Part shown: positions 10,003 through 57,369 of the stretch, piece after piece | Layout: the number at the start of each line of letters is the position of its first letter | How positions within the stretch are numbered: position 1 is the stretch's first letter | Source: Terfezia claveryi | Taxonomy: Eukaryota > Ascomycota > Pezizomycetes > Pezizales > Pezizaceae | NCBI GenBank assembly: GCA_015179025.1 | Contig: WHUX01000154.1 | Span: forward strand, 62,001 to 126,000 | Reading direction: 5' to 3' | DNA length: 64,000 nucleotides | Position numbers and translations under genes: made by a program | The notes under the pieces: generated by a model | Database searches by the model: none | Told to the model about the DNA's origin: nothing | The model's input: the letters and a program-made list of their open reading frames with translations, nothing else

Positions 10003-11085
<1,083 letters not shown>

Positions 11086-21661: not shown

Positions 21662-24600
21662 GGTTATGAGCCCGGGCTGACCATTGCTCCGAGCATTTTA
21701 TTACCCACTAGTGTTGTCAGAAATATCATTTGAGTTAGCCTACCCCCGCGTATTTCGAACCCCTCATACATGCATCAGCATCAGCACCTAGCATCATGTC
21801 ATCGTCATCGTCGTCGCAACTCCCAGGTTCATTTACGAATACCCTTCCTTCTGTTCTATTGAAAGACTTAGAAAAATTGGCTGGTCAATCCAATTTTCTC
21901 TGATGGCGGTCAACCATTCAGAAGGTCCTCAAATATCAGAAGGTCCTAGATATTACCAGGAACAAGCAGGAAACTCCAACGACTGATGCAGCAGCTGATG
22001 CCCTAGATATGAAGAACTTGTAAGCACTCCTTATGATGTAAGCAACAATTTCGCTCGATCAATAGTATCTTATTAGCGAATGTGAAACCGCGAATCAGGC
22101 ATGGTCTAACCTCCACGATGCCTTTGACCGGTAGAATACAATCTCTTCATTCTACCAGATGCGCCTCATGAATGATCTCCAACAGTCAGAGACCAATACC
22201 ATTTCTGACTATGTTCATCAGTTTGGTACTCTTTGGATGCAAACACATAGCAGGTTCTCTAATTCTACTGATGAACTCTTCAAGGTACTTAAGCCGGTAT
22301 ATGAAAATGATACTGTTAAGACTGCTATGTTCCTTGCCTCCCTTCACTCATCTCTAAATGACATTGTTGACAATTTGAATACCAAGAGCAACCTCACATA
22401 TGCAGATGCGACCGCTCAACTACTCGCCATGCATTCTTCTAATGTCGATACTGCTAAAGCCTTAAATGCTATCCAAAAACGCAAAGGCAAATCGACCAAT
22501 CATATTTCTTCTTCTTCTACCTCGCATCGCAAGCCTAATCCCCCTGAACAAGGTAAGACCACTCCTCCTAGTAAGGGTGAATGCTCATGGTGCAAGAAAA
22601 ACGGACACAATTATGCAGGACATGTTCACACTCAGTGCAATCGCCTGAAAGAGCACAAAAATAACTCAAACTCGAGCCAAGGTACTGCAAACCTTGCGAG
22701 CTCTCAGATTGGCGAGTCAGTTGAACATGGTGTTGCATTTCTTACTTCTACACCTTCGGTTGTCCCTTCTGTTTCTTCTTCAGTTGAATACGGTGTTGCT
22801 TTTGTCGCTCACACTGTTTCTCCCTTTGTTGTTCAGAGTGATGGTTCTGCTTATTTGGATAATGGTACAGATATATATCAGGTATGGATCCTTGATACTG
22901 GCGCCTTACATCATATCACAGCTGACATATCTTGCATCACTAACTTAGTGTCATGTATAGTGGACATTAAAGTTGGTGGTGGATGCACTCTTAAGAGTAT
23001 CTATACGGGATCTGTTAGGTTGTCAATGGTTGTTGCTGGTTTGGAGGTCTCCTTTGTCCTTGATGATGTATTGTACATTCCCGATTGGAATAATGCAAAC
23101 CTAATTTCCTGGTGCAAACTTGATTCACTGAATGACTACTACCTTATAGGCCAAGATGGAGTACTTGAAGTAAAGCTCAAGAAGAATCATAAAACTATCC
23201 TACATGCTCCGCTTGGTGCTTATGTTTATACACTGGAGTCTCGCATCTCCAAAGGGCAAGTATATCTTTCAGCGATCCAGTTTTGGCATGAAGCACTTGG
23301 ACATTCATCTCCGAAATTATGGGTCAAAGCATCATATACAGATTCTCAGATTTTACCGAAGTCTTCTTCCGAATTCTATTGTCACAAATGCGCTGTCTCA
23401 AATCTCAAACGCTATACCCCATCACCAGTTAACCATTTATTAGAACATCCCTTCGACCTTGTTCATGCTGACTTATCAGGGCCTATAACACCAACCTCTA
23501 TTGGCGGCGCCCTCTACAACTTCTCTCTCCTAGATGATTACTCTCGGTTTGGATTTACTTACTTTCTTAAGAATAAATCTGAAGCAGTAAAATACTTTAA
23601 AGATTTTTGCTAGAAGATAAATAACCAAACAGGCTGATATCCTCGAAATCTGCGAACAGATGGAGGTGGAGAATTCTGCAACCATGAGCTATGATCCTAC
23701 TGCTCTACCAATGGTATCGTTTATCAGGTGGCCTCAGCATATCAGCATGAGTCTAATGGCGTACTCGAACGCTACAACTAGACTCTACAACACATGGTTC
23801 GACCTGCACTGGCCGATCTACCAAAATTTCTATGGGCCGAATACTACAACTGGTGTAAGGAAGTCACATTCCATTTCCCAATGAAATGTAACTCCCGTTA
23901 CATACCAACTTTTAACCTAGTGGAATAGGATATTATCAGGCCACCAGCATCGGCTGGCAGATAATAATAAAGGTATAGTAACTCATGTATTTCATTATAG
24001 TAATGAGCGTGACCATTGGAAGGGTCACGCAATACTTGTAGTTCTATTTCCTAGTAGTTTCTGGCAGTTTCTATCATGTTGATTTCAAATCATGTAATGG
24101 GTTAGATGATGGCGCACTGCCCCAGCACTGCCCCAGCACTGCCTCACTGTGGACAGTATATAGTCCCCTGAATTCCCCTTTGTTGGAGGAGCGAAAAAAG
24201 TCAGTTTAAGCCAGTAATAGAAACAGAAACAGTATAGTAGAAATAATAACAGTATTGAGCTATTAATTCTGGGCCCTTTATGGGCCTGTCTCCCTCTATG
24301 TTCCAATAACAAGTAATAGGCCGGTCGGGCCTATCTTCTACAACTAGAGCGACAATAGAATATATACAGCAAGATATACTTAAATAGAAGCTATAGGTTC
24401 CGTGCACCTATAGTTTGCTGTAGTAAACTCTAGTACTGCCGCCCGGCAGTAGAGAGTTGGTTATGAAGCACGCCGCCTTACTTTACATTTTTTAATATAC
24501 TTTACTTTACATTTTTTAATAGGACATAGTACTTTATTATTTAAGTCTCAAGTGGTAACAATAGCAAGCTTCTATGAAAAGTAATAGATGTATCTACCTC

Positions 24601-27056
24601 TATTACAATAGTATGAAGTGTTATAACTAAACTCGAGACAAAGAGTTTATTATAATAGCTAAAGGTTACAATAAAAAGTACTTGTCAATAGGAAGTTATT
24701 AAGTATACAACTTATACTTCAAGATTTAGATACATATTTAAAGACTTGGTTTTTCCTTGCCAAAGTCAGACTTGGTTTCTCTTCACCAAAGTCAGTACAA
24801 TTGAATTGGTTACTCAATTGTAAGGTCCCACATTTTCTGGTAATGTGCGACAAACTTAATAACTTGTGTTGGAAAGGTTGGAGGCCTGACCGAACAGTTA
24901 TTTATTATTGTGTGGTATCAACAAATCTTATCAGTATAACAACATATATTTAAACAACAACTTGCGACAAGGTAAAGCTTTAATTTTTAAGAGTAGGACT
25001 CTCTTTTTTGAGGGAGCCATATAAGGAAGTCACATTCCATTTCCCAATGAAATGTAACTCCCGTTACATACCAACTTTTAACCTAGTGGAATAGGATATT
25101 ATCAGGCCGCCAGCATCGGCCGGCAGATAATAATAAAGGTATAGTAACTCATGTATTTCATTATAGTAATGAGCGTGACCATTGGAAGGGTCACGCGATA
25201 CTTGTAGTTCTATTTCCTAGTAGTTTCTGGTAGTTTCTATCATGTTGATTTCAAATCATGTAATGGGTTAGATGATGGCGCACTGCCCCAGCACTGCCCC
25301 AGCACTGCCCCACTGTGGACAGTATATAGTCCCCTAAATTCCCCTTTGTTGGAGGAGTGAAAAAAGTTAGTTTAAGCCAGTGATAGAAACAGAAACAGTA
25401 TAGTAGAAATAATAACAGTATTAAGCTATTAATTCTGGGCCCTTTATGGGCCTGTCTCCCTCTATGTTCCAATAACAAATAATAGGCCGGTCGGGCCTAT
25501 CTTCTACAACTAGAGCGACAATAGAATATATATAGCAAGATATACTTAAACAGAAGCTATAGGTTCCGTGCACCTATAGTTTGCTGTAGTAAACTCTAGT
25601 ACTGCCGCCCAGCAGTAGAGAGTTGGTTATGAAGCACGCCGCCTTACTTTACATTTTTTAATATACTTTACTTTACAACTGGGCTGTTTATATTCGGAAT
25701 CGGCTTCCCCATTCTACACTCAAAGGCAGAACCCTCTTTGAAGTTCTCAACAAAGCCAAACCTACAATAAAGCACCTTCGTCCCTTTGGTTCTCCAGTCT
25801 TAGTTCATATCCCTATTGAAAAACAAGGTGCTAGATCTAAGCTATCACTAAGAGCTTTGGAAGGCAAATTTGTTGGATATACAGGAACTACGCATATGTT
25901 CCGAGTATATATACCATCCCTAAGGAAAGTAGATACCTATCGGCAGGTTAAGTTTATTCCGTCAGATGATACAACCTCGCTTGATTTTTATTTACCACCA
26001 GATATCTCGCTATCTCCAAATCTATCACTATCTCCGACACAAGAAGTAACACCCATTCGCTCTTCTACACCTCCTGCTTTAAGTATGCCAGGAATATTTA
26101 ATACACCTGTTGCATCTCAGCAATCTCAACTTCAAATAACAGAACTCAAAGATAACTCGGATTCTGAGGAAGTTAACCAACAACCCTCTAGAGAGAGCTT
26201 GCGTCCTATTACTCCTCCAACAGCTTTACCTGATCCAACTCCCCCTATAGTGCAGCCTAAAGCCAAGGCTAAGGCACCAAATTCTAGCAACCAGAATATC
26301 GACTTTCGGTCACAACAACTTCGAGTTTCTACAAAAAATCGCAACCTACCGAAACAATTTGATGATATATCTTGGACTAAAGGACAAGCTAATATAGCTA
26401 CTGGACCTTCATCCTATGCTGAAGCTATACAATCATTAGATAAGGACAAATGGGTTGAAGCTATGTTTCAAGAGTATCAAACGCTAGTTGATCAAGAGGT
26501 ATGGTCGGTATATGAGAAAGAGGAGCTTCCTAGTGGTAGGAAGCCTGTAGGTTCATGATGGATATATACTATTAAGCTGAGAGAAGATAGATCTATAGAG
26601 AGGTATAAGGCTCGACTTATGGTTAAGGGCTACTTACAGATAACCGGTATCGACTATAACGAAACGTTCGCACCAGTGACACGGTATGATTCCTTACGTC
26701 TCGTTATTGTCCTCGCAGTCCAACTCAACCTTGATACTACACAGCTAGATATTAAATCTGCATTTACCTATAGATCTCTAGACGAAGAAATCTGGATCAT
26801 ACCTCCTCCTGGTATCGGTCTAGATGGCAAAGTCCTTTTACTCTTAAAGGCACTCTATGGCCTGAAGCAAGCTCCTAAACAGTGGTATCTTAAGCTATCA
26901 ACTGTTCTTAAGGAAGCCAGCCTTATTCCATCACACTTTGATCCCTGCGTTTTTATTCACCCTACTAAGCTTCTATTCATCTGCTTTTACGTTGATGATA
27001 TCTTAGTTGTTGGATATGCCTCTAAAAACTCAACGTTGTATACAAGGTTACACAAG
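21662..27056 (+). mobile_element. Ty1/copia retrotransposon 1, broken and 3'-truncated
   Basis: Gag starts near 21797 (MSSSSSSQLPG). It continues through LNDIVDNLNTKSNLTYADA to a zinc knuckle, CSWCKKNGHNYAGHVHTQC, in the 484-codon block 22159-23613. The same block holds the protease signature WILDTGALHHITAD, the GAG-pre-integrase segment (HEALGHSSPKLW) and the integrase start (DLVHADLSGP, SLLDDYSRFGF). The integrase is then interrupted by a small LTR element (23854-25677) and resumes with HLRPFGSPVLVHIP and KVDTYRQVKF. Reverse transcriptase follows at 26440-27056 (TFAPVTRYDSLRLV, QLDIKSAFTYRSL, LYGLKQAPKQW, CFYVDDILVVG). Stops occur where Arg or Trp is expected (for example near 22021, 22132 and 26557). 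The rest of RT, RNase H and the 3' LTR are missing. Confidence 0.9.
23854..25677 (-). mobile_element. TRIM-like small LTR element, copy 1, nested in copia 1
   Basis: Two 658-bp direct repeats (23854-24511 and 25020-25677) flank a 508-bp interior with no coding capacity. The outer ends are TGTAAGG and TTTACA, flanked by a perfect 5-bp duplication, ACTGG (23849-23853 and 25678-25682). Removing element plus one duplication restores the copia integrase frame EYYNWAVYIR. Read on the minus strand, the interior begins TGGCTCCCTC immediately after an LTR, a plausible tRNA primer site, so the element's sense strand is minus. The LTRs differ at about 15 sites, all transitions by eye. A second copy lies at 59529-61121. 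Confidence 0.88.
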
Positions 27057-27080
27057 TAAGGATACAGTAGGAAAGAAATG

Positions 27081-28125
27081 TCAGTTATTGGCCGACCCTT
27101 GTGCATCTACTGCACACCAAACCCAATTCCAATCCAAAGCCGCAATCCTCCGCGCAGGCCAATGCGTACTCCAATCGTCATTTTCCAATGCTTCTGAGGC
27201 TTCTGAGGCTTCTGACGCTTCTGACGCTTCTGAAGCTTGTAAGCTTTCCAAACTAGAAGACGACCCCCAGAGCTCGCTTGGAGAGCCAAAGCTTTCACTA
27301 TTGGTTGAGCAGGATGCGCCTGAGGAACCACTATACTCCGAATCCACTGCACACTCTTCAACATTGTCCGCAATCATATCCACTTCCACGTCCGTGTCGC
27401 TCTCGCTAGATGTGGGAGTGTTCCATTGTAGTAAAGAGCATCTCCAAGTCCAGTCGGGCATTGCGTAGAAGTTGATAATCTCTGGAGGTCTACATGGAGT
27501 TAGCCTGACATTGTGATTAGATGCAACATCAAGAACATGCCTTCGGGAAGGTAGAAGCGAGATGCGCTCCCCACAACATTGTACTATTATTCTGGGCGAT
27601 GGGTGCCATGGTTGGGGCACAAATACACGACGTCGAGACACCAAGGCGTCTGGTATTCGATGGGTCTCGGAAAGCACCTAGAATAAGGTAAGTTACGGCT
27701 CAGATGTTCTTCGGCCCAGTGTCAACTTACAGATGGAAATTGACAATTTTCGCATATACCCCAGGATAATGCACCCATGCCATTGGTAGTTGGTCGGCAG
27801 AGAGTCAGGTAAAAGTTGAAAAGAGTAACCCACAATAAATCGTAAAGAGTGTAGTCGTCTAGGTAAAATGGATCCCAAGTAGACGTGGCCCAGGGCGTAA
27901 GTGGTACCGACCAATCCAGATCAGCTCAAGGAGTACTTGGGCTGCTACTCGAGACTCAATCCTGCTTGGGTCGAATCGTTCCATAACCAACAGCGTAGCC
28001 TCAAATTTTACCAATTCACTGCTACCCAGGCTCAGGAAATATTGTAGTCCATTGTCCTGCTCCCACAACACTCTGAAGCGTTCAAACGACTCTTCATCAT
28101 CCGGGTTGTAATAGTTCTCCGCCAT
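27081..28125 (-). CDS. hypothetical protein gene or relic, with Ser/Glu-rich tail
   Basis: An ATG at 28125 starts MAENYYNPDDEESFERFRVL, which continues to LLELIWIG near 27905. The likely continuation (TYALGHVYLGSILPRRL, through ILGYMRKLSISI) is in another frame. A GTAAGT..TTCTAG intron at about 27678-27731 leads to VLSETHRIPDALVSRRRVFV and an acidic, Ser-rich end with five EAS repeats (about 27185-27240). I do not recognise the family. The frame change near 27905 suggests either an unrecognised splice or a broken gene. It lies immediately beside the truncated end of copia 1. Confidence 0.35.
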
Positions 28126-28289
28126 ATTGTTAGGCTAATATGAAATGGCAATACCTACATACTATATATATATATAGTTTTATTCATTTATTTTATTTTT
28201 TATTTTTCATTTTTAAAAAAGAAAAAACTCGTTGCTCATATTCGATGACTATTGCCTATTCTAGGAATTATCTGGATATTGTAATACCG

Positions 28290-28465
28290 CATCTACTGGC
28301 GAATAACGATCCTTGTCAGTTCTCTGACTTTCGCTGCAGACATCATTATTAGCAAGTCAGTGAGCATGTTACCACCACCTGTTTTGCACTCGGACATCAC
28401 CTTTACTGCATAAGCTCGGCCTATGTCATTAAACTGACAAGGATCGTTGTTCGCCAGTGGATACA
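28290..28465. repeat. imperfect inverted repeat (hairpin)
   Basis: The left arm, CTACTGGCGAATAACGATCC near 28291, and the right arm, whose reverse complement reads CCACTGGCGAACAACGATCC, both continue into TTGTCAG. About 110 bp lie between the arms. It may be a small foldback element or an inverted duplication. Neither flanking duplications nor coding capacity are evident. Confidence 0.45.
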
Positions 28466-28782
28466 GTATCCTGTTTACGTACCTCTTTATTCTACTTTAG
28501 ATCGGTACATACTAGTTACTCAGTAGCCTTATTTCAATCTGGCCTACATACCCAGTAGTGTGCTAAGATCTGGTGGCTAATGCTGCTTAGCTTGTGAAAT
28601 CTATACCTGTTGGGTGAAGTTGCTTAGTTAAGCCTCAACAGAAACACTACTTAAGTATGCCGCCCAATTTGAAATTACGCTACCGAATAACTGGAGCTCT
28701 ACGGTATGTGACCATATTCGGTAATGCTACGAAATACCTACGCCTGCTTGGGATAACCGCAAGTACCAAACTGCTCAGCAGT

Positions 28783-29185
28783 GACCAGTCCGTGACAAGT
28801 CAACTAGTCCGTGACAAGTCAACTATTCCGTGACAAGTCAACTAGTCCGTGACAAGTCAATAGTCTGGTTGGCACAACACCCTCCTCACAAGTCAACCTC
28901 TACGAGGGTCTGATCGAGACTAACAAGTCAACTAGTCCGTGACAACTACGAGGGGTAGTGCAACCAGACTAGTCAACCAGTACGTACCAACACAATCACT
29001 CAGTGATAAGTCCGTGACAAGACGATCAGTCTGTGACAAGTCAAGTGCCAACCGACTAACAAGTCAACGAGTACGTGACAAGACAATCCAATCCATGACA
29101 AGACAGTCAATCCGTGACAAGACAACAAAGTGATAAGTCAACTAGTCCGTGACAAGACAAACAATCCGTGACAAGACAACCAACT
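28783..29185. repeat. minisatellite with 19-bp unit containing TCCGTGACA
   Basis: About 15 irregular copies of AGTCCGTGACAAGTCAACT are seen, some degenerated to CAATCCGTGACAAGACAA. A copy of the TAGTCTGGTTGGCACAA palindromic family (28858-28977) is embedded inside. The core TCCGTGACA recurs in arrays of different flanking sequence at 31003-31075, 33743-33780, 34806-35000 and 43655-43692. Confidence 0.8.
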
Positions 29186-29414
29186 AACCGCCGGGTGATT
29201 CCAACCGTATCAAACTCCCAATCGTGTAGAAGATACCTCCACATGTAATGACCAGCCACATACCGATCAGGTATTGGCTTTTTTTCTTCGCTCTAAGTTG
29301 CATAGTCTTATCTCGTTTCTGAGACTCCTTTACTTTAGCAATAGAGACATCAAGGGGCTGGAGGGTGGACCATAGCCAGATAGTGGCCATAGCAATGGTA
29401 GATAAAATCCGCAT
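29184..29414 (-). CDS. possible small membrane protein (76 codons)
   Basis: ATG at 29414. The product has a hydrophobic N-terminus (MRILSTIAMATIWLWST), a basic middle (QKRDKTMQLRAKKKSQ) and a second hydrophobic helix (YLIGMWLVITCGGIFYTIGS). This is a two-helix pattern with a positively charged loop. I do not recognise it. The C-terminus runs to the edge of the minisatellite, so it may be a truncated gene. Chance cannot be excluded at this length. Confidence 0.35.
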   Translation of the reverse strand: MRILSTIAMATIWLWSTLQPLDVSIAKVKESQKRDKTMQLRAKKKSQYLIGMWLVITCGGIFYTIGSLIRLESPGG

Positions 29415-29878
29415 GTCCTCGCTGCTCCTTCAACTACAGTAACAGCAATCACTACGCTACTTCTTCAACTACCGTAATCCTCATCCTCAAGATCTCACAC
29501 ACCGAACAACACTATGCATACCAACTCGAGCACAGGAATCCTAGAGCAAAGCATGGCCCCAAGGTATGAACTTCTCATACTTAGTTTCTTGCCCAATATC
29601 ATCGTTTTGCAGTTATCCCGCGTAATCTTGGTATTTGCGATTCTGGGCTTAATGGGCTTGCCCAATTGACCGGTTGCACTGGATAGATTCTGATCGTATT
29701 TTCATTGCTCCCTGGGGACTGAGCTTTTGGAAGCCATAGGCAACTGCACGTGCCAAAAGCACTCGGCTTGTAGTGGTAGAAAATAGTTAAGGCTCCAGTG
29801 GACAGAAATAGGCGCTATAGCGGTGTGGTGGGCACATCACTTGAAAACAACAGGACCTTGTTATAAGCCTGCGGCTAA

Positions 29879-30415
29879 TCCGAATTTTACTCTAGTGATC
29901 TTAGGAACCGATATCCGCGGCGCTACCAGTCTCGCAGGCCAGTAGAAGTCCCTGCCACCCCAAGCGAAGCACCTACAGATGGTGAGGAAGTTGAAGACGA
30001 TTTTCCTAGCGAGCAGCCGGAGAACAAGGAGAATGAGAAGCCCATCCCAAGCACGCAATATGAATTATCCCAATTTATTACATCTGCTTCTGCCTTCCAA
30101 GAACGTCCCATGATTTTAGACCCCGCCCCTTCTGGTTTCTGCCCAGTGAAGCCCCGTTCCCCATTGCGAGTAATAAGTCATTTGCCTGATGAGGATGGGG
30201 ATGAGGTTGCTCCCCTCAGGACTATGGACGCTAAACAGCGGCACCTCCGCAAGCAACGAAGGGCTCGCGATCGGAAGCGGAGGGAAAAAAGGAGGGCAGG
30301 TCTAGGTAGACAGCCTGAGATGGTCAGCTCAATGGAAGGGCATCTTATCGGGCCTGGCTGTTCAAATATCCATATTGCCCATATTGGCCCTATAACCATG
30401 AATTTTAAGAAATAA
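29879..30415 (+). CDS. hypothetical protein, C-terminal exon, acidic then strongly basic
   Basis: An open frame runs from 29879 to the stop at 30413-30415. A TTTACTCTAG acceptor at about 29885-29894 suggests that it is the last exon of a split gene. The translated part has an Arg-rich start (RNRYPRRYQSRRPVEV), an acidic stretch (DGEEVEDDFPSEQPENKENE), a Pro-rich segment and a very basic helix (KQRHLRKQRRARDRKRREKR, near residues 118-137 of the frame). It ends GPITMNFKK. I recognise no family; composition suggests a nuclear or nucleic-acid-binding protein, which is inference. An upstream ATG frame at 29514 (51 codons) may or may not belong to it. Confidence 0.45.
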   Translation, partial: SEFYSSDLRNRYPRRYQSRRPVEVPATPSEAPTDGEEVEDDFPSEQPENKENEKPIPSTQYELSQFITSASAFQERPMILDPAPSGFCPVKPRSPLRVISHLPDEDGDEVAPLRTMDAKQRHLRKQRRARDRKRREKRRAGLGRQPEMVSSMEGHLIGPGCSNIHIAHIGPITMNFKK

Positions 30416-30882
30416 TAAATCTGGTTTATTTGGAATGCATCTATGCGCTTAGTGACACATGCTCGCTTAGTAGTAATACAAGTCACATTTTCCTTTTTCG
30501 GTTCGTGACATCCAAGTTTGCTTGTAGTCTCGATCGTTTGCTTGCATACAAAGAATGAATGCATGCCTTTGTTCAATTTCCCCCTTTGTTCAATTTGCCC
30601 CTTTGTTCACTTCAACTCGCCGTAACTTGTGAGGCATCTGAGAATCTCATTCATTTCTCACAACAAACATTGACAGTTCAACCCACATAAATTGTGCTCA
30701 CGATAATTCAGGGGTAAGTGCTTTAAGTTCTGTAACCGGAGACCAGCTATGCAAGTCGCGGGTGGAAAGATTACTGACGGAGACATCACAGACATTTTAA
30801 CCCACATAACTTGGCCTCAGAATATTCAAAGGTTGTGTCCTTGCGGGTTGCCTGAATTGGAAAGATAGTGTAATTCGCTGAA

Positions 30883-31269
30883 TTGTTGAAGTCTCACGCT
30901 GCGTCCAGTATAATACCCACTATTGGCTATCGCCAGCGCCGGTTAGAAGGCCTCATTTCTGCAGGTATGTGCTCCAAGGTCGTGCGTGATCCAAAGTGCT
31001 CCAAGGGCTGTATCACGGACGGTGTCACAGATGGTGTCACGGACGGTGTCACGGACGGTGTCACGGACGGTGTCCAGGACGTCCATAGATCTGACAAGAA
31101 AGCGTGTAGCCAAAAAAACAGACTATCAAAGCAAGGGATCACAATGGTAGGCCCCGTACAGAAAAAGAAGACGCCATCGAAGAGGAACACAACATCCGGG
31201 AATCGAACAACAGATAAACGCAAACGGAGAAAGACTTCTGTGACAACTGTGCAGTCACGCCTATCCTAG
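30883..31269 (+). CDS. hypothetical ORF spanning a TGTCACGGA array; exons uncertain
   Basis: The frame stays open across a 12-bp array (31003-31075) that would translate as repeated VTDG. A good donor (CTGCAG then GTATGTGCTCC, near 30960-30970) precedes the array, so the repeats may be intronic, as they are in the H3-like gene at 33733-33809. Downstream of the array, MVGPVQKKKTPSKR and TTDKRKRRKTSV (from 31144) form a very basic segment with a possible own start codon. I recognise no domain; basic N-tails of this kind are found in many nuclear proteins. Confidence 0.3.
   Translation: MLKSHAASSIIPTIGYRQRRLEGLISAGMCSKVVRDPKCSKGCITDGVTDGVTDGVTDGVTDGVQDVHRSDKKACSQKNRLSKQGITMVGPVQKKKTPSKRNTTSGNRTTDKRKRRKTSVTTVQSRLS
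31003..31080. repeat. 12-bp tandem repeat GTGTCACGGACG
   Basis: About five copies of GTGTCACGGACG (one with CACAGA). The 12-bp unit preserves reading frame, which explains the open frame. The array shares the TGTCACGGA core with other arrays in the island. Confidence 0.85.
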
Positions 31270-31636
31270 CCGCGCCTGCCCCAGCCCCAGTTACGCCAGT
31301 AAACCCATATGAGAAGTATGCGGAATTTCCTTGGGGCTCAAAAGAATTCGACCCAGACAAAGAGTTTAGTGGAGGTCGTAAAGTTTGGGGAACATCAACC
31401 AATCCACACACCAGAAAAATCCGGGAAACTCAGAAAAGATTGCTGGGTCCACTTCTAGCGTTCGAACGAGCCAAGGACTGGAAGCGCCAAAAAGTTAACA
31501 GGGCTCTCAAAGCTGGCGTGGCGGAGAGTGAGCATGCCACTGTTACCGGTGCACCAATTGGGACGAAGAGGAATCAGCTCAGTGATGTGCAACGGGCAAG
31601 TTCGAATGACTTGTCCAAAAGACCTGGGAGGTAATG
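31270..31636 (+). CDS. hypothetical ORF fragment upstream of the acidic-tail gene
   Basis: An open frame gives an Ala/Pro-rich start (APAPAPVTPVNPYEKYAEF), FPWGSKEFDPDKEFSGGRKV, then RETQKRLLGPLLAFERAKDW and RQKVNRALKAGVAESEHATV. It stops just before the ATG at 31634. It could be the 5' exon of the following gene, but I found no intron that joins the two frames in phase. No family is recognised. Confidence 0.3.
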
Positions 31637-32472
31637 TTAGTTCGGAAGAAGGCGTATATTTTATATCGCTGGTATGGGCTCTCCCAAGCGCAGAAGAGGT
31701 TTTATCTTGAGCTAGGCGAAGGTGATAATATACCGGCATTTACAATTCCAGAAGGTCATTTGGAAGAAACGGGAACAAAGCCAGTAAATGAGTTTAGCGT
31801 CGTTGTTAGTGTTGAGCCCATTTCACGCCAAGCATACGCACGGTTCGAGGGCCCAATTGAACAGCCACATGCACAGGACGATGCAATTGCCATAGCTGAT
31901 CGGATCATACAGGAAATGGAAATAGCTGAAGGGGGTGCGGAAGATTGTTTAAGTGATGCAGTTGAGGATATTGAACCCGTATGTATCTCTCCCTTCAGAA
32001 GTGTGATATATTATTCACCATAGCATAGGACTCCGAGGATGAAAGCGATGGCCAGGTTCTAGAGGACGACCTTTCATCATCTGACGCTGAGGCCGAGCTT
32101 ACTGATTCCAACGATGATGCCAAGGTATATTCGGTAAAGGATAGCGTAATCGAAACTCCATTATGGCCAGCATCGAGGCTACGTCAAAAAGGATTGCCTC
32201 ATCTTGGTGGCGATTCACCCCCAGGACTTATCCCGAGCGACACAGATGATGATGATTACGAGGATGTGGAGGGGATTGAGGAGAATGAAGTGGAAGAAGG
32301 GGATGAAGAGAATGAAGAGGGTGAAGAGGGTGAAGAGGATGAAGAAGATGAAGAGGGTGAAGAGGATGAAGAGGATGAAGAAGATGAAGAGGATGAAGAG
32401 GATGAAGAGGATGAAGAGGATGAAGAGGGTGAAGGAGAGGATGATGTCGAGGGAGAAGAACAAGATGAATAA
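31634..32472 (+). CDS. hypothetical protein with long polyacidic C-terminus
   Basis: Exon 31634-31978, a 50-bp intron (GTATGT..CATAG, 31979-32028) and exon 32029-32472 join in phase to give 262 residues. The N-terminal 115 residues look globular (KKAYILYRWYGLSQAQKRFY, FTIPEGHLEETGTKPVNEF, SVVVSVEPISRQAYARFEG). After the junction the sequence becomes acidic (DSEDESDGQVLEDDLSSSD). It ends in some 70 residues of almost pure Glu/Asp encoded by a GATGAAGAG-type repeat (32270-32455). Long acidic tails are common in histone chaperones and other basic-protein binders, and a divergent histone lies 830 bp downstream on the same strand. A functional link is only a hypothesis. I recognise no conserved domain. 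Confidence 0.5.
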
Positions 32473-33302
32473 CGACCACGTATGGGGTGTCACGGAGCTT
32501 ACACTTTGTCACGGAATTTATATTTTGTCACAGATCCCTATGTTGTCCAGCAATTATTTCTCTATTTCCTTGTCGTCTGATGGAATGTTTGGTATTGGTT
32601 GTTTGATATATCATTGTGGGTCAGGATTGTTGATTTATTGTTCTTTTGGATACAGCAATAGGTTAGTATAGACTAGTCGCTAGGTGGACAATAGAGTACT
32701 TAAGGTATAGTCTGGTTGGCACAAGCCCGGTATATTAGGCTAGTGGTGCAGGCTTAGACTGGGGTACAACTCACGAGTCGGCTTACACTAGTCCCTCGGT
32801 GTTCTAAGGTTGCATATGAGACAGATAGGTATATATATATACTCTAGTATATATCGCCTCCCAGCTTGTCTGGTCTCCTCCGGTAATCCCAGCCCACCTG
32901 CAGGCAAAAGTAACCCATATGCGGCCCCGTTAAGGGGGCCAAAATGAGTCAGTCCCCAGGGGGAATTTGGCAAAAGGCGAGTTAATCTGCCACGACGATG
33001 CTTGTTCAGCTTAATTGTGTACACGACTAACAGCCTAACAGCTAGTTGTCGATATCCTTTGTCGGGTTTCGTTTGTCGATATCCTTTGTCGGGTTTCGTT
33101 TGTCGCGTTTCCTTTGTCGGGTTTCCTTTATCGATGTATCTAAGCTAACTTGAGGGAACGTGCAGGCAAACTTGGATTCATTGTTTGATAGTTAGGTCTG
33201 GATCCCCACAACGCTCTGTGTTGCTTCGTCTCGTATAAGATCATCACTATCGCCCCTGGGTCACCAAGTTCATCGCCTCCTTTAACCAGCTAACATATAA
33301 GA
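32473..33302. promoter_or_regulatory. upstream region of the H3-like gene, with tandem repeats
   Basis: No gene is seen. Directly downstream of the acidic-tail gene the word TTGTCACGGA or a variant occurs three times (32490-32535). A copy of the TAGTCTGGTTGGCACAA family lies at 32708. At 33047-33135 is a tandem repeat of about 27 bp built from TTTGTCGATATCC and TTTGTCGGGTTTC. It ends about 170 bp before the ATG at 33303, a position where it could act in the promoter. This is positional inference only. Confidence 0.4.
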
Positions 33303-34234
33303 ATGGTAAGAACAAAGCAGGTTCCGAAGAAAAACCCCGGGCAACCAGCGAGGTCACAAGTCCCTAGGAATATAAAATCAGTCGTGCCCCCCCAAAAAGC
33401 GGTGGCACCAAAAACCATAAGAAAGCGGTCACAAGGACGTTAGCATTCCATTCCATGAAGCATTCCATTCCATGAAGTAAAAAGGACTAATCTAACTGTA
33501 TTATCAGTCAGCCTCGTACGTCAGATTAGGAATCAACAGAGAAGCGTTGACCTAATATTTCCGAAGATTGCATTCCGCAGGCTGTGCAGGGAGATTGTAC
33601 AAGACGTGAATAGGGATAATAACGACAAATACTCGCAGTTCATAGATCGGAATAATGTGGAGCATATCCAAGTGAGGGCAACAGATGCCATACAGGAGGT
33701 GGCGGAAGCATATATGCATGAGTATTTCACCAGTAAGTCAAAATATGTCACGGATGCTGTCACGGATGCTGTCACGGACAAATATGACTAATCACGAATA
33801 CGGAAAAAGCGGTGAACCTGATTGCAACACAAGGCGGTGAAACACACAATAGACAAACAATCCTACAGCGGGATGTTAGACTATGGCATAAAATTCAGGA
33901 GAATATATTGGCCGGGGGTAATGTGCCGGGGGCATTTCCACATGTACCTCTTGTGAGCCGACGAATGCCCCAAAAAGCAAAAAGAGGACGCCGTGCAGTA
34001 CCGAGACCAGCCGGAGGAGGAGGGCCAGCAGCAGCAGCAGGGGCAGGAGGAGCAGCAGCAGCAGCAGCAGCAGGAGCAGGACCAGGGGCAGGGGGAGGAC
34101 CAGGGGCGGTGGTAGCAGCAGCAGCAGCAGCCGGAGCAGGACCAGGGGCAGGAGGAGGAGGAGAAGCAGCAGCAACGGTGGGGGCAGTAGCAGGCGGAGG
34201 GGCAGCAGGAGGAGGAGGCGCAGGTACCCAATAA
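33303..34234 (+). CDS. divergent histone H3-family protein with extended loop 1 and Ala/Gly-rich tail
   Basis: Exons 33303-33438, 33508-33732 and 33810-34234 join in phase (introns of 69 and 77 bp with CTAAT branch sites) to give 261 residues. After removal of Met the N-terminus reads VRTKQVPKKN, so K4 and K9 align with H3 ARTKQTARKS. The alignment to canonical H3 is gap-free to D77: K36, G44, R49, R52, S57, K64, F67, R69, L70, R72, E73, Q76 and D77 are kept, while K14, K27 and K56 are not. Alpha-1 is followed by a 14-residue insertion in loop 1. Alpha-2 is IQVRATDAIQEVAEAY, against LRFQSSAVMALQEASEAY. About four extra residues in loop 2 precede alpha-3, RQTILQRDVRLWHKI. Beyond the fold come a basic patch (RRMPQKAKRGRRAV) and about 90 Ala/Gly residues encoded by a GCA/GGA repeat. 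Extended loop 1 recalls centromeric H3, but identity as CenH3 is unproven. Confidence 0.85.
33733..33809 (+). repeat. intron 2 of the H3-like gene carrying TGTCACGGA repeats
   Basis: This 77-bp intron begins GTAAGTC, contains three units of 12 bp on the pattern GCTGTCACGGAT, then a GACTAATCAC branch site and a GGAAAAAG acceptor. Removing it joins EYFT to TVNLIATQ, which matches the alpha-2/loop-2 transition of H3. The same core is found in neighbouring non-coding arrays. Confidence 0.75.
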
Positions 34235-34784
34235 TCATTCCCTTGTGTTAGCATACCGTACATCACCTAGCAGAAGGTTCACTGTTACTGAGGATGAAAT
34301 ATATAGTTACAAGAACGACCACAACGTGGGGAGGTTTACATCAACGGTCGAAGAGGGACCGCCCTGATGTTATACGATTCCGGTTTAGATGTCAATTACC
34401 AAGGAACACAGATACCCGAACGCCTGACAGCCAAGGTAAATATTGGAATCTTTGGTGAATTAGGTTCCGGTACCCGACTTCCTACCAGTTGAACACCATC
34501 CCACCAGCCAAGTGCTTTTTTTAGGGAACGTTTAGGGCATTTGGTTTTGCTTTGAAGAGTTTTTTTTTTTTCTTTCTATGTTGTATAGTTGTATGAATTG
34601 ATTTACGGGGGATTATTGGTAAACTCAAGTGAGGTTAGGAAGGATTTTTCAGGTTTTGTAGGATGTGGGAAGGATTTTTGTTATAGTCATGGTGACGGGT
34701 CTTGTGATTTATTTAAGGTATATTAATATATTTCTTAACCGATATTTGGGTAAGGATTTTGTTTGGCCGTGTAGTACAGATTGC
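34235..34784. other. 3' flank of the H3-like gene
   Basis: No gene is assigned. A frame at about 34309-34490 reads GEVYINGRRGTALMLYDSGL and might be a 3' exon or fragment of another gene. I could not connect it to the H3-like gene with a credible intron. The rest is AT-rich. Confidence 0.3.
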
Positions 34785-34799
34785 TAGTATTGTTCGTCA

Positions 34800-35050
34800 G
34801 CGGGTGGGAGCAATCCGTGACAGTGCAAGCAATCCGTGACAGTGCAAGCAATCCGTGACAGTGCAAGCAATCCGTGACAGTGCAAGCAATCCGTGACAGT
34901 GCAAGCAATCCGTGACAGGCAATCTGGCATAGTGAAAGAAGCAAGGAATCCGTGACAGTGCAAGGAATCCGTGACAGGCAATCGGGCACAGTGCATACAA
35001 TCCGTGATAGTGCAAGGAATACGAGACAAGCAATCTGGCACCGTGCAAGC
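34800..35050. repeat. 19-bp minisatellite GTGCAAGCAATCCGTGACA
   Basis: Six regular units (34806-34915) are followed by several degenerate ones, to about 35050. Because 19 is not a multiple of three, all three frames read as rotated versions of the same peptide. This creates long but meaningless open frames on the minus strand. The unit shares TCCGTGACA with the 28.8-kb array, which also has a 19-bp period. Confidence 0.85.
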
Positions 35051-35179
35051 AACCCGTGAAGGTAGAAAGAATCGGTCATACAAAGACAACCAAGATATAG
35101 GAGAACGGAATGAGGGTGTTAAACGTGATGAGATTATAGAAGAGTCGGGACAAAACAATAAAAAAAAAAAGGAAACAGG

Positions 35180-35337
35180 GTAGGCTTGGCGAGTAATCTG
35201 TAGATCACCGATTAATCGCGAGTCGAGTTGTAGGACAGGAAAGCCGACTCGGCGAGTTGTTGAAACTCCAAAACTCGCTCGCCGAGGCGGGTCTTGGCGA
35301 CCAGGTCCGAGTTGTACTCGCCCCGTGGCGCACACTA
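35180..35337. mobile_element. partial foldback/hAT-like element end
   Basis: The right end, CGCCCCGTGGCGCACACTA (to 35337), is related to the termini of the element at 35990-36607 (TAG.GTGC.CA..CG). The body is rich in ACTCGCC/GGCGAGT words, as in that element. I find no matching left end or target duplication, so it is probably truncated. Confidence 0.45.
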
Positions 35338-38813: not shown

Positions 38814-41245
38814 CTAGTTGTCCGACATTCCCAACCCAAGCTCTTTGGCGACAATCTCCGCAGCTTTACCGCCGAGCAGCAGTGCAGTGCTATATGTATT
38901 TGCGCCGACATTCTCTGGACATATTGAGAGATCTTCAAACGGCTTGTCAGTAAAGGACATCAAAGGTATAGCTTCCATGTGTAAGAACACAGCCATTGAA
39001 GCTACTCACCAGCTACCTTCAACCCCTGTACTCCGTATACATTCAAGTTTCCATCTACAACTCCGCCTTGTTCCCTAGGTCTCATTGCAGCCGTTCCTAG
39101 CCAGTGCCATACAGGAAAGAAGTTTGCTTTCACCCATTCCCCAATGACCTTATTATCCTCTTCGGTGTATACCACTTTGCTATTTGCAATCTCGACACGC
39201 TGTTCGGCTGTAGGGTACTCAACGCAACGTGCTGCGGAAGCCTCCGGAAAAGGTGGATGGAATTCACGAACTTCGCCACGAAAACTGGGCATGCGCCGCG
39301 CAAACTCACGTTGGTGCTTGTAAGCTAGGATATGTGGTGGCAAGTCGCGAGGATCAAACAGGTATTGTGGTCTGAATTTTGGGAAGGCGTTGATGCTGGA
39401 GCTGGTAATATGGATACTCCCTCGGGAGACAGGGTACAATATGTATGGGATGAATATCTTATAGGAATACTCTGGAGTAAGAAATGTCCATTGTGGGTCG
39501 TTTATAGGACGTTCGAGAAAACAACTGATGCTAATATTTCACAGACATCATAAACCAGTTAGAATCTATTTTTGCCGGCCACAGAGCCCTTTCGAGCGAA
39601 CTTACAATAGAGACTTATCAGGTGCGTTGAGATAGTATACATTCCATAACTTACGGAAAGCAGGCCCCATCTCCTGGAGCTCCTCCTCAGTAGGCCTTAT
39701 CCTCCCCGCGCCCCCAATGAAGTTCATTGAATGTGGCCCTTTACCACCTTGCTTGAAGTCTTCATCGGCCTCAAGCATTGCCGCGGGATCATCCCTCAAA
39801 TAGTCGTTATAGTGCGGAAGCGTGTCCTTGTCGAACCTGTAGAAATATTGACTGCCAGCCAAGTGGTCTTGTAAATTTTCACCCACCCCCGGAAGGTCAA
39901 CCAAACACTCCACGTTGGCCTTTCGTAGTATTTCTGGAGACCCAATCCCGGAGCGTTCGAGAAGTTGTGGAGTATTGGCTGTTCCAGCCGTTAGCACAAC
40001 CATCGAGCGGGCTCGGATTGACCTGACAACAGGATGTGAAGGCGCATTCGCGTTTGTGGTTTTCGAGCCTACACTTTGAGGCCTGCCTAAGGGTAAATCT
40101 AGTTTTATCGGCTCTGTGACACTAGTGGTGTGGCTATGGGCAATTTCGACCCCCGTAGCTCTACCTCCGCTGATTATAACACGCACGACTCTGTGCTCGC
40201 AGAGAACGGTGAGGCCATTATTAGAGTGTTCAGAGATATTAGGGTGAATGTATCTGTGTGCGGGGTCTTGACGATGGCCGGTAACTGGGTCAATCCACTT
40301 TGGCCACTCCTATGGTACCTCAAACTAGGTGGTTAGCCATTGGGAAGTTCAGATGATACACTTATTTGATAATCTTCAAGTAAATATAGATATTGGTTAT
40401 ACTCACCGAGAAGCCAGCCCCATTTCTCAAATTCTGCATGTCAGCAGCAATAGGGTACCCCAGTTTTTGTGCTGCATGATAGACTTCACCAGCATTTGGA
40501 TCACTCTGTTCTCTGAAGTCAGGCCCATGGGATACTGCAAAAGGCCCCGAGAATCCATGGACACTCTGGTCGGGATTTGGATCACGTGTAAATTGATAAT
40601 TTTCGATCTATCAGTATTTATAGAGGTTAGTTGATTATTGTTCCGGGGCAACTTCACAATATGAACCGGTTGCCACAGGGTTCTACCTTACGAAGAATTG
40701 GTACCAGGTCCTCTGCATACCATCCTTCCGTCCTCCAATCATCAAAGTCGCTATCACAAACTTTGTCAGTATTTCATAGCTACTTTGCACTTCAGTTGCG
40801 GGAACAAATACACACCTTGCACTTGCCCGTGTATACATCATGAAATTCACACTTCCTCCTCCACCGAGAATATTTGGAACGGCTACTTCAATCTCTCTTC
40901 CGCAATGGTCTAAATTGCCTTTGATACTGTTGAAATAACCCGAGTTGGGATTGAGATTGGCCCAATACCGCCCAGGGCGGACCACATTGGGGTCATTGTG
41001 GTTATCACGCCCGGACTCGATAAGAAGAATTGAAAGACGTCGGCCTTCCTGACGTGCCGTTTCACAGAGCCTACCCGCAAGAACGCATCCGGATGAGCCA
41101 CCTGTAACGTATGGTCAAATTAAGAACTCTTTTTTCTAGGTGGTGACAAAGTGAGTAAAGGTGAGAATTATGGCAAAGACCTACCTCCAACAATTATGAT
41201 ATCGTATTCATCGCCAACGATCATGGGATCGTTTGCCAGCGGCAT
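38814..41245 (-). CDS. GMC oxidoreductase, alcohol (methanol) oxidase type
   Basis: Seven exons (41245-41185, 41101-40816, 40750-40687, 40607-40407, 40309-39606, 39530-39010, 38932-38814) join in phase to 651 residues; alcohol oxidases are usually about 660. The first splice builds the FAD-binding motif YDIIIVGGGSSGCVLAGRL. Next come PNILGGGGSVNFMMYTRASA, SDFDDWRTEGWY, NGAGFSEWPKWIDPVTGHRQ, the second GMC signature (GTANTPQLLERSGIG), IRPTEEELQEMG and RPINDPQWTFLTPEYSYK. The catalytic His is in VWHWLGTAAMRPREQGG, and the C-terminal Asn in LSICPENVGANTYSTALLLG. The family oxidises short primary alcohols to aldehydes and H2O2 using FAD. Peroxisomal members end in a PTS1 tripeptide; this one ends GMSDN and shows none. 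The real substrate is unknown. The gene looks intact. Confidence 0.92.
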
Positions 41246-45636: not shown

Positions 45637-46110
45637 GGAGTTCAGACATCCCGAGCATGCGGAGTTCAGAGATCCTGAGCATGCAAATTCAGACATCCCG
45701 AGCATGCGAATTCAGACATTCTGAGCATGCGAATTCAGACATCCTAGGCATGCGAATTCAGATATCTCGAGCATGCGGAGTTCAGAGATCCCGAGCATGC
45801 AAATTCAGACATCCCGAGCATGCGAATTTAGACATCCCAAGCATGCGGAGTTCAGACATCCCAAGCATGCGGAGTTCAGACATCCCGAGCATGCGGAGTT
45901 CAGAGATCCTGAGCATGCAAATTCAGACATCCCGAGCATGCGAATTCAGACATCCTGAGCATGCGAATTCAGACATCCCGAGCATGCGAATTCAGACATC
46001 CTAGGCATGCGAATTCAGTTATCTCGAGCATGCGGAGTTCAGAGATCCTGAGCATGCAAATTCAGACATCCCGAGCATGCGAATTCAGACATCCTGAGCA
46101 ATCGAGCTGC
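45637..46110. repeat. ~23-bp satellite array, forward orientation
   Basis: About 20 units of the pattern ACATCCCGAGCATGCGAATTC with variants: CCCG/CCTG/CCTAG in the middle, AATTC/GAGTTC at the end. Each unit contains the palindrome GCATGC. Long open frames across it are artefacts of the repeat. Confidence 0.92.
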
Positions 46111-46354
46111 CTGAATTGGCATATGCTCGAGATATCTGAACTGGGGGACAGAAACTGATTGAGTTTGTTCAAGTCGTCGACGTCAACTGTCATACAATTT
46201 CTAGGTGTGCCAAGTCATCTGCCTGTCAACGTCAACGCTCATACAATTTTGTATGAGGGTTGACACGGTTTTGTCAATGCTGTCAACGCTGGTACACTGG
46301 GCTAACTCTTCGACGTCCTGAAAGAGTGCAGTGACAACACTGCTCTGAATTAGC

Positions 46355-47065
46355 TCGCTCAGAATGTCTGAATTGGCTCATGCTCAGGATGTCTGAACTC
46401 CGCATGCTTGGGATGTCTGAACTCCGCATGCTCAGGATGTCTGAACTCCGCATGCTCGGGATGTCTGAATTCGCATGCTTGAGATGTCTGAATTAGCTCA
46501 CTCAGGATGTCTGAATTCGCATGCTCAGGATGTCTGAATTCGCATGCTCAGGATCTCTGAACTCCGCATGCTCAGGATCTCTGAACTCCGCATGCTCAGG
46601 ATGTCTGAATTCGCATGCCTAGGATGTCTGAATTCGCATGCTCAGAATGTCTGAATTCGCATGCTCGGGATGTCTGAACTCCGCATGCTCAGGATCTCTG
46701 AACTCCGCATGCTCAGGATGTCTGAATTCGCATGCTCAGGATGTCTGAATTCGCATGCTTGAGATGTCTGAATTAGCTCACTCAGGATGTCTGAATTCGC
46801 ATGCTCAGGATCTCTGAACTCCGCATGCTCGGGATGTCTGAATTCGCATGCTCAGGATGTCTGAATTAGATCATACTCGAGATGTCTGAATTCGCATGCT
46901 TGAGATGTCTGAATTAGCTCACTCAGGATGTCTGAATTTGCATGCTCAGGATGTCTGAATTAGATCATACTCGAGATGTCTGAATTCGCATGCTCGGGAT
47001 GTCTGAACTCCGCATGCTCAGGATCTCTGAACTCCGCATGCCCAGGATGTCTGAATTAGCTCGAG
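46355..47065. repeat. ~23-bp satellite array, reverse orientation
   Basis: About 30 units of GATGTCTGAATTCGCATGCTC and variants, the reverse complement of the first array. Together the arrays form a large inverted repeat around a 240-bp spacer (46110-46355). The spacer contains GTCAACGCTCATACAATTTTG-type words related to left-arm sequence near 44810-44860. Confidence 0.92.
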
Positions 47066-48203: not shown

Positions 48204-49460
48204 CTATGCAGTCGACGAATTACGGCGACTTTGCAGTTTTTCCAGGTCTTTATAATTCCACATTATATGCCCGATCTCAGCATCATCTTCAGTCCAGCCA
48301 GTCAATTCGATCGCTAACTTCTCGACCCCGTCCCTTTTTATCCGATCCCGCAATTCAACACTCTGTGGATCATCATCGTTCTCATATCTCATAGCAGCCG
48401 CAATTCCTCGACACAAATGCTTATTAGGTAGCTCGTAAACCTTACACAGCTGAGCTGGTCCAACAAATCTATCATTTCTGCCCAGCTTCCTCAGCGGTTC
48501 ACGCCCCACACGGACACATTCATCCTTCAAGTGCGGATTGCGGAATCGATTTATGATCTTATCAATGTAGGCGGCATGGGCATCAGTGTCAAAGTTGTAT
48601 TTTCGTTCTAACGCCGCACCTGACTCTTGCATAGCATGACGAACATTCCGCGCAATCTCCTCATCATGGATGGACTCGGAGATTGTATCGTAACTTTTCA
48701 GAAACCCGAGATATGCCGTCATCGCATGACCGGTGTTAAGAGTGAAAAGCTTGCGTTCAACATAGGCTTCTAGACGGTCTGTAAGTCGCATTCCTTTGAC
48801 TTCTATCAGGAATGGTGGGTTTCCTTTCAACGCCTTCCTTTCAACAATCCATTCATGGAAGAGCTCCACGTCGACATCGAGAGTTGGGTGGTCAATTGGT
48901 GCGTTATCGGCGGAAGGAGGAGGCACGATTCTGTCCACGGAACAATTTGGAAACCCAATATATCCCTCCAGGTACTTCCTGTCCTTCTCACTTTCCATGT
49001 TACCCAAAACCAACTCCTTCAATAATGATGAAGCACCAACTCGATTTTCGCAGGCAATGACATTAAGATATTCTGGTTCTTCCCCTGGCTCCTTTCCCTT
49101 CCCACGTGCTTGCTCTCTACGCTTTCGTTTCTCTGAAAACCCTCTTGCCAAAGTTGGTGCCACATATTTCAACACATCAGGTCCGACCGCCGTCGTAATT
49201 ATGCTCGCACTGACAATCTCTTCAATAATACGCTGGTCGTTGGAGTTGCACCCAGAAATGTCTGTTCCGGAGGTCGTAGTTGTTTCTGCACCATCGGGGA
49301 GGAGGATGTGAATGTGATATTCTTTCTCTTCGTTAATGGCATCGATAAGAGGTTGATTGACGTCCGCAAAGGTAACGTGATAACCGGATTGTGTGAGAAG
49401 GGCCCCGATAAAACCTCTTCCAATGGACCCGGCGCCGAACTGCAATGCTCTGGGTGCCAT
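48204..49460 (-). CDS. mpdA: mannitol-1-phosphate 5-dehydrogenase
   Basis: A single uninterrupted exon gives 418 residues when the ATG at 49460 is used. An in-frame extension upstream starts only with TTG, so I chose the ATG (MAPRALQFGAGSIGRGFIG). The N-terminal Rossmann motif QFGAGSIGRGF binds NAD(H). Further family landmarks are TTAVGPDVLKYVAP, VIACENRVGAS, FPNCSVDRIVPP and the long-chain mannitol dehydrogenase motif KLFTLNTGHAMTAYLGFLKS. The enzyme interconverts mannitol-1-phosphate and fructose-6-phosphate in the cytosol, the main entry to mannitol in ascomycetes. Insertions rich in Lys/Glu (about 110-125, KRKRREQARGKGKEPGEE) make it somewhat longer than the roughly 388-residue Aspergillus enzyme. 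The gene looks intact. Confidence 0.95.
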   Translation of the reverse strand: MAPRALQFGAGSIGRGFIGALLTQSGYHVTFADVNQPLIDAINEEKEYHIHILLPDGAETTTTSGTDISGCNSNDQRIIEEIVSASIITTAVGPDVLKYVAPTLARGFSEKRKRREQARGKGKEPGEEPEYLNVIACENRVGASSLLKELVLGNMESEKDRKYLEGYIGFPNCSVDRIVPPPSADNAPIDHPTLDVDVELFHEWIVERKALKGNPPFLIEVKGMRLTDRLEAYVERKLFTLNTGHAMTAYLGFLKSYDTISESIHDEEIARNVRHAMQESGAALERKYNFDTDAHAAYIDKIINRFRNPHLKDECVRVGREPLRKLGRNDRFVGPAQLCKVYELPNKHLCRGIAAAMRYENDDDPQSVELRDRIKRDGVEKLAIELTGWTEDDAEIGHIMWNYKDLEKLQSRRNSSTA

Positions 49461-50404
49461 TGCGTACAAGATGAGAGATGTGTGGATGCTGTTACTTTCG
49501 ACACCAATGCCTTTTCGTGATCTGGAACTTGAACTAGAGTTAAACGCTGTGAGAAGCTCAGTCGAGGCTACTCAACAAAATATAATTGAGGCTGATGAAA
49601 CACAGGAACCAAGGGTGAATAATTTGTAAATCTGTGGTTAGGAAAATAGCAAGTATAAATTGACCTATCCCTTGGGTGATGACATCGCTTGCCCCACTGA
49701 CCAAGGTCCTCATTATGACGTCATGCCGAAACGTCTGCCCTGATTTGCCTCACTCAATAGTATACTTATACCTAATATGATAATTCTGATGCGCGTCATG
49801 CGGCTCTTGTATGAATAAGTATAGTCTCGATCAGACCTCGTAGAGGGTATGAGTATGTCCTTATACGGTACCTAGCTGGGACTGTTCTGCCAAGGTTTGT
49901 TTTCAACTTGCAGCCTGAGACACTGTCCTAGAGTAATAGGCGATCTACGACTACCTATGTAAATAGATATTACCTGATGTCCGGTGATGAGGAAGAATAT
50001 GTGGCCATTTTTAGATTTCTTAACAGAACTGTGAATGCAACCGTTTATAGTTGCAGAGTAGAAGCCTTATATGTATATCGCTTATGGCAGTAGAACACAA
50101 TTAATAAAGATTTTTTTTTTTCCTTTTTTTTGAAGTATATACCTATGAGACGGCCTCGTTAAAGAATTGGTACTTATACGGAGACAACGGACTCGTCAAC
50201 GTCCTGCCTTAACCTTAAGGTAGTCTGGTTCCCTTAACCGGCCTAGCCTGGTTGGCACAACCCCTCGGTAGAGGTAACCGGCCATGCCGTGCCAACCAGA
50301 CTAGGCCATGCCCCTAACCGAACCGGCCCTTTCCTGGTATAGTCTGGTTTTTACTCTCTTGTGCCAACCAGACTAAGTATTAGCCCCCGCCCTCGCAAAA
50401 TCAT
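49461..50404. other. intergenic, with a cluster of short palindromic elements
   Basis: The first part includes the promoter of the mannitol dehydrogenase gene. At 50219-50376 are several copies and inverted copies of the TAGTCTGGTTGGCACAA motif in succession, some enclosing CCCCTCGGTAGAGG. No gene is seen. Confidence 0.45.
50219..50376. repeat. cluster of TAGTCTGGTTGGCACAA palindromic elements
   Basis: Within 160 bp occur TAGTCTGGTTCCC, AGCCTGGTTGGCACAACCCC, GTGCCAACCAGACTA, TAGTCTGGTTTTTAC and TTGTGCCAACCAGACTA. These form two or three nested foldbacks. Other copies lie at 3807, 14838, 28858-28977, 32708 and 47252-47300 (the last inside the satellite foldback element). They fit a family of very short MITEs. 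Confidence 0.65.
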
Positions 50405-57299: not shown

Positions 57300-57369
57300 A
57301 ATATATGAAGGAGTAGAGGTATAGACTCGATTATGGTAATAGAGAGGTTAGAGCTCCGGGCTCATAACC

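Follow-up and report, generated by a model that had tools for sequence, protein, structure and literature searches.

A hAT transposon of the desert truffle Terfezia claveryi carries a divergent histone H3 gene that probably serves the element

Histone H3-like genes carried by hAT DNA transposons have been published for the Dothideomycetes in 2013 and 2019 without a demonstrated role (PMC3538342, PMC6710886). Manning et al. (2013) described in Pyrenophora tritici-repentis a 5.6-kb hAT element with nearly identical, recent copies, whose H3-like product (H3L), for which expressed sequence tags were reported, is neither canonical H3 nor centromeric H3 (CenH3) and is reported to have insertions in its N-terminal tail (PMC3538342). 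Dhillon et al. (2019) described H3-carrying hAT elements in Pseudocercospora fijiensis and five other Mycosphaerellaceae, which are 9.5 kb long, present in hundreds of copies with 8-bp duplications, described as intronless and as inactivated by repeat-induced point mutation (RIP), and interpreted as holding a captured host transcript (PMC6710886). In Arabidopsis, VANDAL transposons encode the anti-silencing VANC proteins, which are reported to bind element DNA (PMC10398659, PMC5735166). Here we analyzed a 64,000-nucleotide stretch of the genome of the desert truffle Terfezia claveryi (Pezizomycetes; positions 62,001 to 126,000 of contig WHUX01000154.1, hereafter the window), in which a preliminary description made from the letters alone had pointed out a divergent H3 gene at positions 33303..34234, and found that this gene belongs to a hAT transposon.

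The truffle element resembles that of P. tritici-repentis, with which it was compared by description, in being a hAT with an H3-like gene that is neither canonical H3 nor CenH3, whereas selection between subfamilies is shown for the truffle element and not for that of P. tritici-repentis (PMC3538342). The Mycosphaerellaceae elements are likewise hATs with an H3-like sequence and 8-bp duplications, but the truffle elements have three exons in the gene, one H3 per element read, a mild C-to-T bias and selection between subfamilies; a 16-aa insertion in one of the two P. fijiensis H3 copies may, to judge from its description, be the loop-1 feature of the truffle protein (PMC6710886). The excerpts of the open-licence PMC literature on histones and transposons contained no report of a hAT-borne H3 in Pezizomycetes or of selection on a cargo H3, and those of the open-licence PMC literature on Terfezia transposable elements (including PMC13152902) contained none on an H3-carrying hAT. 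The association of hAT and H3 is now seen in a distant fungal class and in several diverged subfamilies in which both the H3 fold and a partner protein show purifying selection.

The H3-like gene is carried as cargo by a hAT DNA transposon, of which the genome has dozens of copies. The features of the copy in the window are as follows.

27024..35337, plus strand: copy of the hAT DNA transposon, 8.3 kb, with the transposase (left) end lost; matches to other copies, the closest at 97-99%
29888..30412, plus strand: third conserved open reading frame (ORF) of the element, 175 codons, with the motif NKENEKP; 72 matches in the own genome and a counterpart in subfamily C
31144..32472, plus strand: companion gene, with a basic N-terminus, a conserved core and an acidic C-terminal exon (32029-32472); exon borders putative
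33303..33438, plus strand: exon 1 of the H3-like gene (N-terminal tail)
33439..33507, plus strand: intron 1 of the H3-like gene, 69 bp, phase 1, GT-AG; position and phase shared with subfamilies B and C
33508..33732, plus strand: exon 2 of the H3-like gene (alpha-N, alpha-1, enlarged loop 1, alpha-2)
33733..33809, plus strand: intron 2 of the H3-like gene, 77 bp, phase 1, GT-AG; position and phase shared with subfamilies B and C
33810..34234, plus strand: exon 3 of the H3-like gene (loop 2, alpha-3, basic patch, tail), with the stop codon TAA at 34232-34234
34013..34231, plus strand: Ala/Gly tail, 73 residues
35316..35337, no strand: 22-bp terminal inverted repeat at the right end; in inverted orientation it is identical to the left end of the copy on C773

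A complete element of 12.6 kb was found on C773 (772295-784890), with 22-bp inverted repeats identical at both ends and the target-site duplication TGAGTATT; the window copy is short of about 4.3 kb of this form. The left limit of the window copy, 27024, is common to the comparisons with C773, C21 and C246 and abuts a Copia reverse-transcriptase fragment, and the right limit is a sharp end at about 35337 in most copies. Among the eight copies checked at both ends, seven showed an 8-bp target-site duplication (six perfect, the one on C21 with 7 of 8 bases), and C44 showed none; the check on C778 was read by eye. The transposase pieces lie on the minus strand in the left third of the C773 element, a region absent from the window copy, and match Dimer_Tnp_hAT (PF05699) with E=9.7e-12. 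Membership in the hAT superfamily is secure. As to a BED-type zinc finger, nothing stronger came up than a weak match to Zn_ribbon_12, whose 18 bits fall below the cutoff of 27. The genome holds at least 40 near-complete right ends (40 scored of 128 candidates) and at least 181 matches to the H3-like protein, many of them 80-98% identical and with the identical exon pattern. No relative was found in IMG/VR, and a viral origin was rejected. On C7, C31, C190, C198, C214, C277 and C346, hAT termini with the shared inverted repeat face each other at a distance of 2.6-3.1 kb; judged by their ends, these are probably non-autonomous derivatives.

Within the element the transposase on the minus strand is followed by the plus-strand small ORF, the companion and the H3. 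At 32 of 76 H3 places a transposase piece on the opposite strand lay upstream at no more than 20 kb, another arrangement alone was seen at five, and 39, among which contig ends and truncation were seen, had none; the 76 H3 and 100 transposase places are exon-2 and domain hits chosen from lower-bound lists, for which 150 candidates each were scored out of 204 and 198, respectively. In 15 of the 32 cases H3 and transposase were 8.3-9.8 kb apart, whether the subfamily was near or distant. Candidates for a second H3 in one element (C512:165903, C771:4994 and C152:2459) turned out to be decayed single copies of subfamily C.

The odd histone gene itself is real. Both introns are GT-AG, and splicing yields an uninterrupted protein of 261 aa, so the two introns and in-frame exons that the preliminary description had proposed hold at their coordinates; since the three-exon pattern recurs across many copies and diverged subfamilies, the exons in the window are not due to chance. 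The profile search that it had called for matched the protein to Pfam Histone (PF00125; E=1.5e-11, 45.1 bits against a cutoff of 26.4), and a phmmer search of the PDB gave 164 sequences at E<=0.001, the top 60 shown being all H3 types, with the H3 chains aligning to residues 1-150; the fold is thus closest to H3, which places the protein in the histone H3 family. The alignment agrees with the 14 extra residues in loop 1, about four in loop 2 (four were found) and recognisable alpha-2 and alpha-3 of that description, and alpha-1 matches as well. Other details need correction: the alignment to H3, said to be gap-free to about residue 77, has small gaps, and only 34 of 88 aligned core residues are identical to the host H3; PKKN stands around K9 where H3 has ARKS, so the K9 context is not kept and the tail is not the canonical ARTKQTARKS; and the tail, put at about 90 Ala/Gly residues, has 73, of which 61 are A or G. 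The VRTKQ start is true of the window copy but is not the rule, for among 17 subfamily-A copies 11 begin with M-A, 5 with M-V (the window included) and 1 is without a recognisable exon 1; this comparison leaves aside C253 (a split copy), L020 (39 bases) and repeat fetches of identical copies. In a model of exon 2, of low confidence (predicted local distance difference test score, pLDDT, 64), alpha-1 seems to be lengthened and a loop to come after it.

Four subfamilies of the transposon H3 were distinguished: A, that of the window itself; B (C32, C45, C390, C219, C140 and C131); C (C355, C253, C165, C343, C331 and C149, with decayed copies); and D (C512). The loop-1 length and the loop-2 insertion are common to the four aligned rows, and introns 1 and 2 lie at identical codons and in the same phase in A, B and C; exon 1 of D has a broken frame in the single copy read. 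ARKS is missing in all four, and all four have the tail motif RN[IV]K[ST]. The K4 context ARTKQ is exact in B and in the majority of A, C has mostly AGTKQ, and D has ATTKT. The C-terminal extension, which had been noted as atypical for any H3, is indeed a low-complexity tail, but Ala/Gly is just one version of it, B having Pro/Ala/Glu and C a His- or Ser-rich tail.

The H3 fold and the companion core are under purifying selection between subfamilies. By the Nei-Gojobori method, omega over the H3 fold, computed with one sequence per subfamily, was 0.13 for B-C, 0.12 for B-D and 0.18 for C-D. In the pairs with A, the proportion of synonymous differences (pS) was 0.75-0.81, at or near saturation, and that of nonsynonymous differences (pN) 0.26-0.30; the low-pN pattern of the fold vanishes out of frame. 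For the companion core, A-C gave pS 0.78 and pN 0.20 over 185 codons. Within subfamily A, most copies are broken, with many stops. Ratios of pN to pS against the window copy were 0.20-1.74 in 14 of 15 comparisons, nine of the 14 being below 0.7, and the remaining one had no synonymous change; these 15 comparisons leave out L008 and include L029 and L030, which are near-identical and hardly independent. Selection between subfamilies together with decay within A fits a gene that is under selection while its element is active and no longer so once a copy has inserted. The copy in the window inserted recently, since it differs from the 12-copy majority at just 2 of 2117 sites (33182-35337); its H3 frame is intact, and its transposase end is missing. 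The 12 copies carry 443 changes, 373 of them C>T or G>A, which are most frequent at CpG (7.1%) and CpA (4.0%); strong RIP was not seen in these copies, which show a mild RIP- or deamination-like bias instead.

A search of the genome for the canonical H3 and CenH3, which had been proposed as a check, found a gene for each. The canonical H3 lies at C153:8707, with 98% over residues 33-118; the other, which is CENP-A-like, lies at C773:158050, with 70% over residues 36-133. No host gene of the transposon-H3 type was found in the own-genome search, and the host H3 gene, read by eye, is unbroken across both intron positions of the transposon H3. A protein search with the H3-like protein as a single sequence gave no match. 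With the four-row alignment as query, 79 proteins came up at E<=0.01; those at the top were for the most part metagenomic relatives with a loop-1 insertion, and most of the rest were ordinary H3. Metagenomic H3-like proteins with a similar loop-1 insertion include P0027-P0030 and P0032, of which P0028 and P0030 keep IKTIV in the tail and lack ARTKQ. P0090, from a metagenome-assembled genome of the lichen fungus Peltula sp., is an H3 with extra residues before the loop-2 TNL, either an odd H3 or a gene-model artefact. A 26-row tree joins the four transposon H3s with five metagenomic relatives in a single group (100/99) that sits on a long stem, lies outside both host H3 and the two CENP-A rows and does not group with CENP-A; the tree tool warns of long branches, and the attachment point of the group is unsure.

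The companion in the window copy is scattered over three frames; on C773 its main exon is a single frame of 356 codons. The acidic exon has 77 D/E and 5 K/R in 147 aa. Relatives were found in T. claveryi (BGX38DRAFT_1271474 and BGX38DRAFT_1275589), Terfezia boudieri, Tirmania nivea and metagenomes. A known domain was rejected, as P0007 matched no family and 19 members gave eight families with one weak match each; a sequence comparison with the PDB found no relative, and the best match of a fold search, made from a poor model (pLDDT 50), had E 2.1. The third ORF shows 45% identity to its subfamily C counterpart over 137 aligned codons, with pS 0.63 and pN 0.39 on a gappy alignment. Its NKENEKP is a putative KEN-box-like motif, and on a transposon protein it might act as a cell-cycle degron.

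The anatomy, copy number and gene order of the truffle hAT transposon show that it carries transposase, KEN-like ORF, acidic companion and divergent H3. We think it probable, though well short of certain, that the H3 helps the transposon, a benefit that we infer from the selection between subfamilies. Spread would then continue only in those lineages of the element whose H3 works, and single inserted copies would decay. Several observations weigh against this: only three of 17 subfamily-A copies (window, C21 and C246) have frame and splice sites intact along the 177 codons compared, each subfamily entered the omega values with one sequence, the K4 context is kept only partly in C and D, no known family or fold could be assigned to the companion, the fold matches of the exon-2 model are not significant, even if 12 of the 17 hit chains in nucleosome or CENP-A entries, and the facing termini 2.6-3.1 kb apart are too short for the full gene set. 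In the published interpretation of similar elements in Pseudocercospora and relatives, a host H3 was caught long ago by a hAT through passive transduplication and has since been amplified and decayed as a neutral passenger (PMC6710886, PMC3538342). The within-A ratios reaching 1.74 and the many stops agree with this, but most of those ratios lie below 0.7, the fold is under purifying selection between subfamilies, the loop insertions and the tail motif are conserved, and the own-genome search found no host gene of this type, while the host H3 lacks both introns; we regard a mere passenger as quite unlikely. Far more improbable is the view taken in the preliminary description, that of a host H3 or centromeric variant lying by chance in a repeat island. 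It can point to the enlarged loop 1 and to a core slightly nearer the host CENP-A (40 of 93 aligned residues identical) than the host H3, but the loop is shared by four transposon subfamilies that group with the metagenomic relatives apart from both host proteins, so the CenH3 reading finds no support; and a single-copy host variant is ruled out by copy number within a transposon with its own termini, separate host genes and the tree. That description of the gene was therefore partly supported: it is a divergent H3-like gene within a repeat and not a retrocopy, but it is the cargo of a multicopy hAT and neither a lone gene nor a host variant.

As to how the H3 might help, the likeliest mechanism, which we offer tentatively and as a guess, is that chromatin made by the element resists silencing. 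The element-made H3 would pair with host H4, the acidic companion perhaps handing it over to that pairing, and chromatin containing it would resist heterochromatin marking; the protein is thus a putative nucleosomal histone, which would be expressed and sit in chromatin with H4. ARKS sites are read by the K9/K27 silencing enzymes. We favour this mechanism because ARKS is missing in A-D, a lysine motif is conserved instead and an acidic partner travels along; the one pointer to a chaperone role of this companion, which fits no recognised family and no recognised fold, is its acidic tail. The mechanism would work as in VANDAL, where a DNA transposon encodes an additional protein that acts against silencing by the host, but VANDAL has no histone, and function is shown for VANC and guessed for the truffle H3 (PMC10398659, PMC5735166). 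The main rival is a direct role of the H3-like protein in transposition, by holding transposon DNA or the transposase or by directing the choice of target, rather than in escape from silencing. The constant association of the H3 with transposase and companion across several subfamilies and the selection on the H3 fold would suit such a role as well; the short, complete-looking ends without room for the gene set, however, suggest action in trans, the H3 being probably not needed in cis, and we find such a direct role unlikely. Returning to anti-silencing, a bolder version, which we also hold to be doubtful, is that a hAT lineage has kept its own H3 and acidic partner as working machinery since before the split of Pezizomycetes and Dothideomycetes, that the published cases of captured H3 are decayed members of it, and that its chromatin cannot be silenced by host K9 methylation. 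The idea of a transposon keeping its own histone for its own benefit becomes directly testable with this element, which gives a way to study evasion of heterochromatin by supplying the markable histone itself.

The surroundings of the element include ordinary genes.

10276-10686, minus strand: short-chain dehydrogenase
11851-12969, minus strand: major facilitator superfamily (MFS) transporter
39605-40309, minus strand: glucose-methanol-choline (GMC) oxidoreductase
48207-49571, minus strand: mannitol dehydrogenase

A Copia-type stretch at 22135-27056 on the plus strand is cut short at 27024, the left limit of the hAT copy, and a second Copia-type retroelement stretch lies at 53171-57347 on the minus strand; the Copia ORFs scanned in the window matched Pol_BBD, RVT_2, SH3_retrovirus and rve. 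Two arrays of 23-bp units were also seen, at 45641-46100 and 46344-47057, and it seems that they consist of one unit in opposite orientations.
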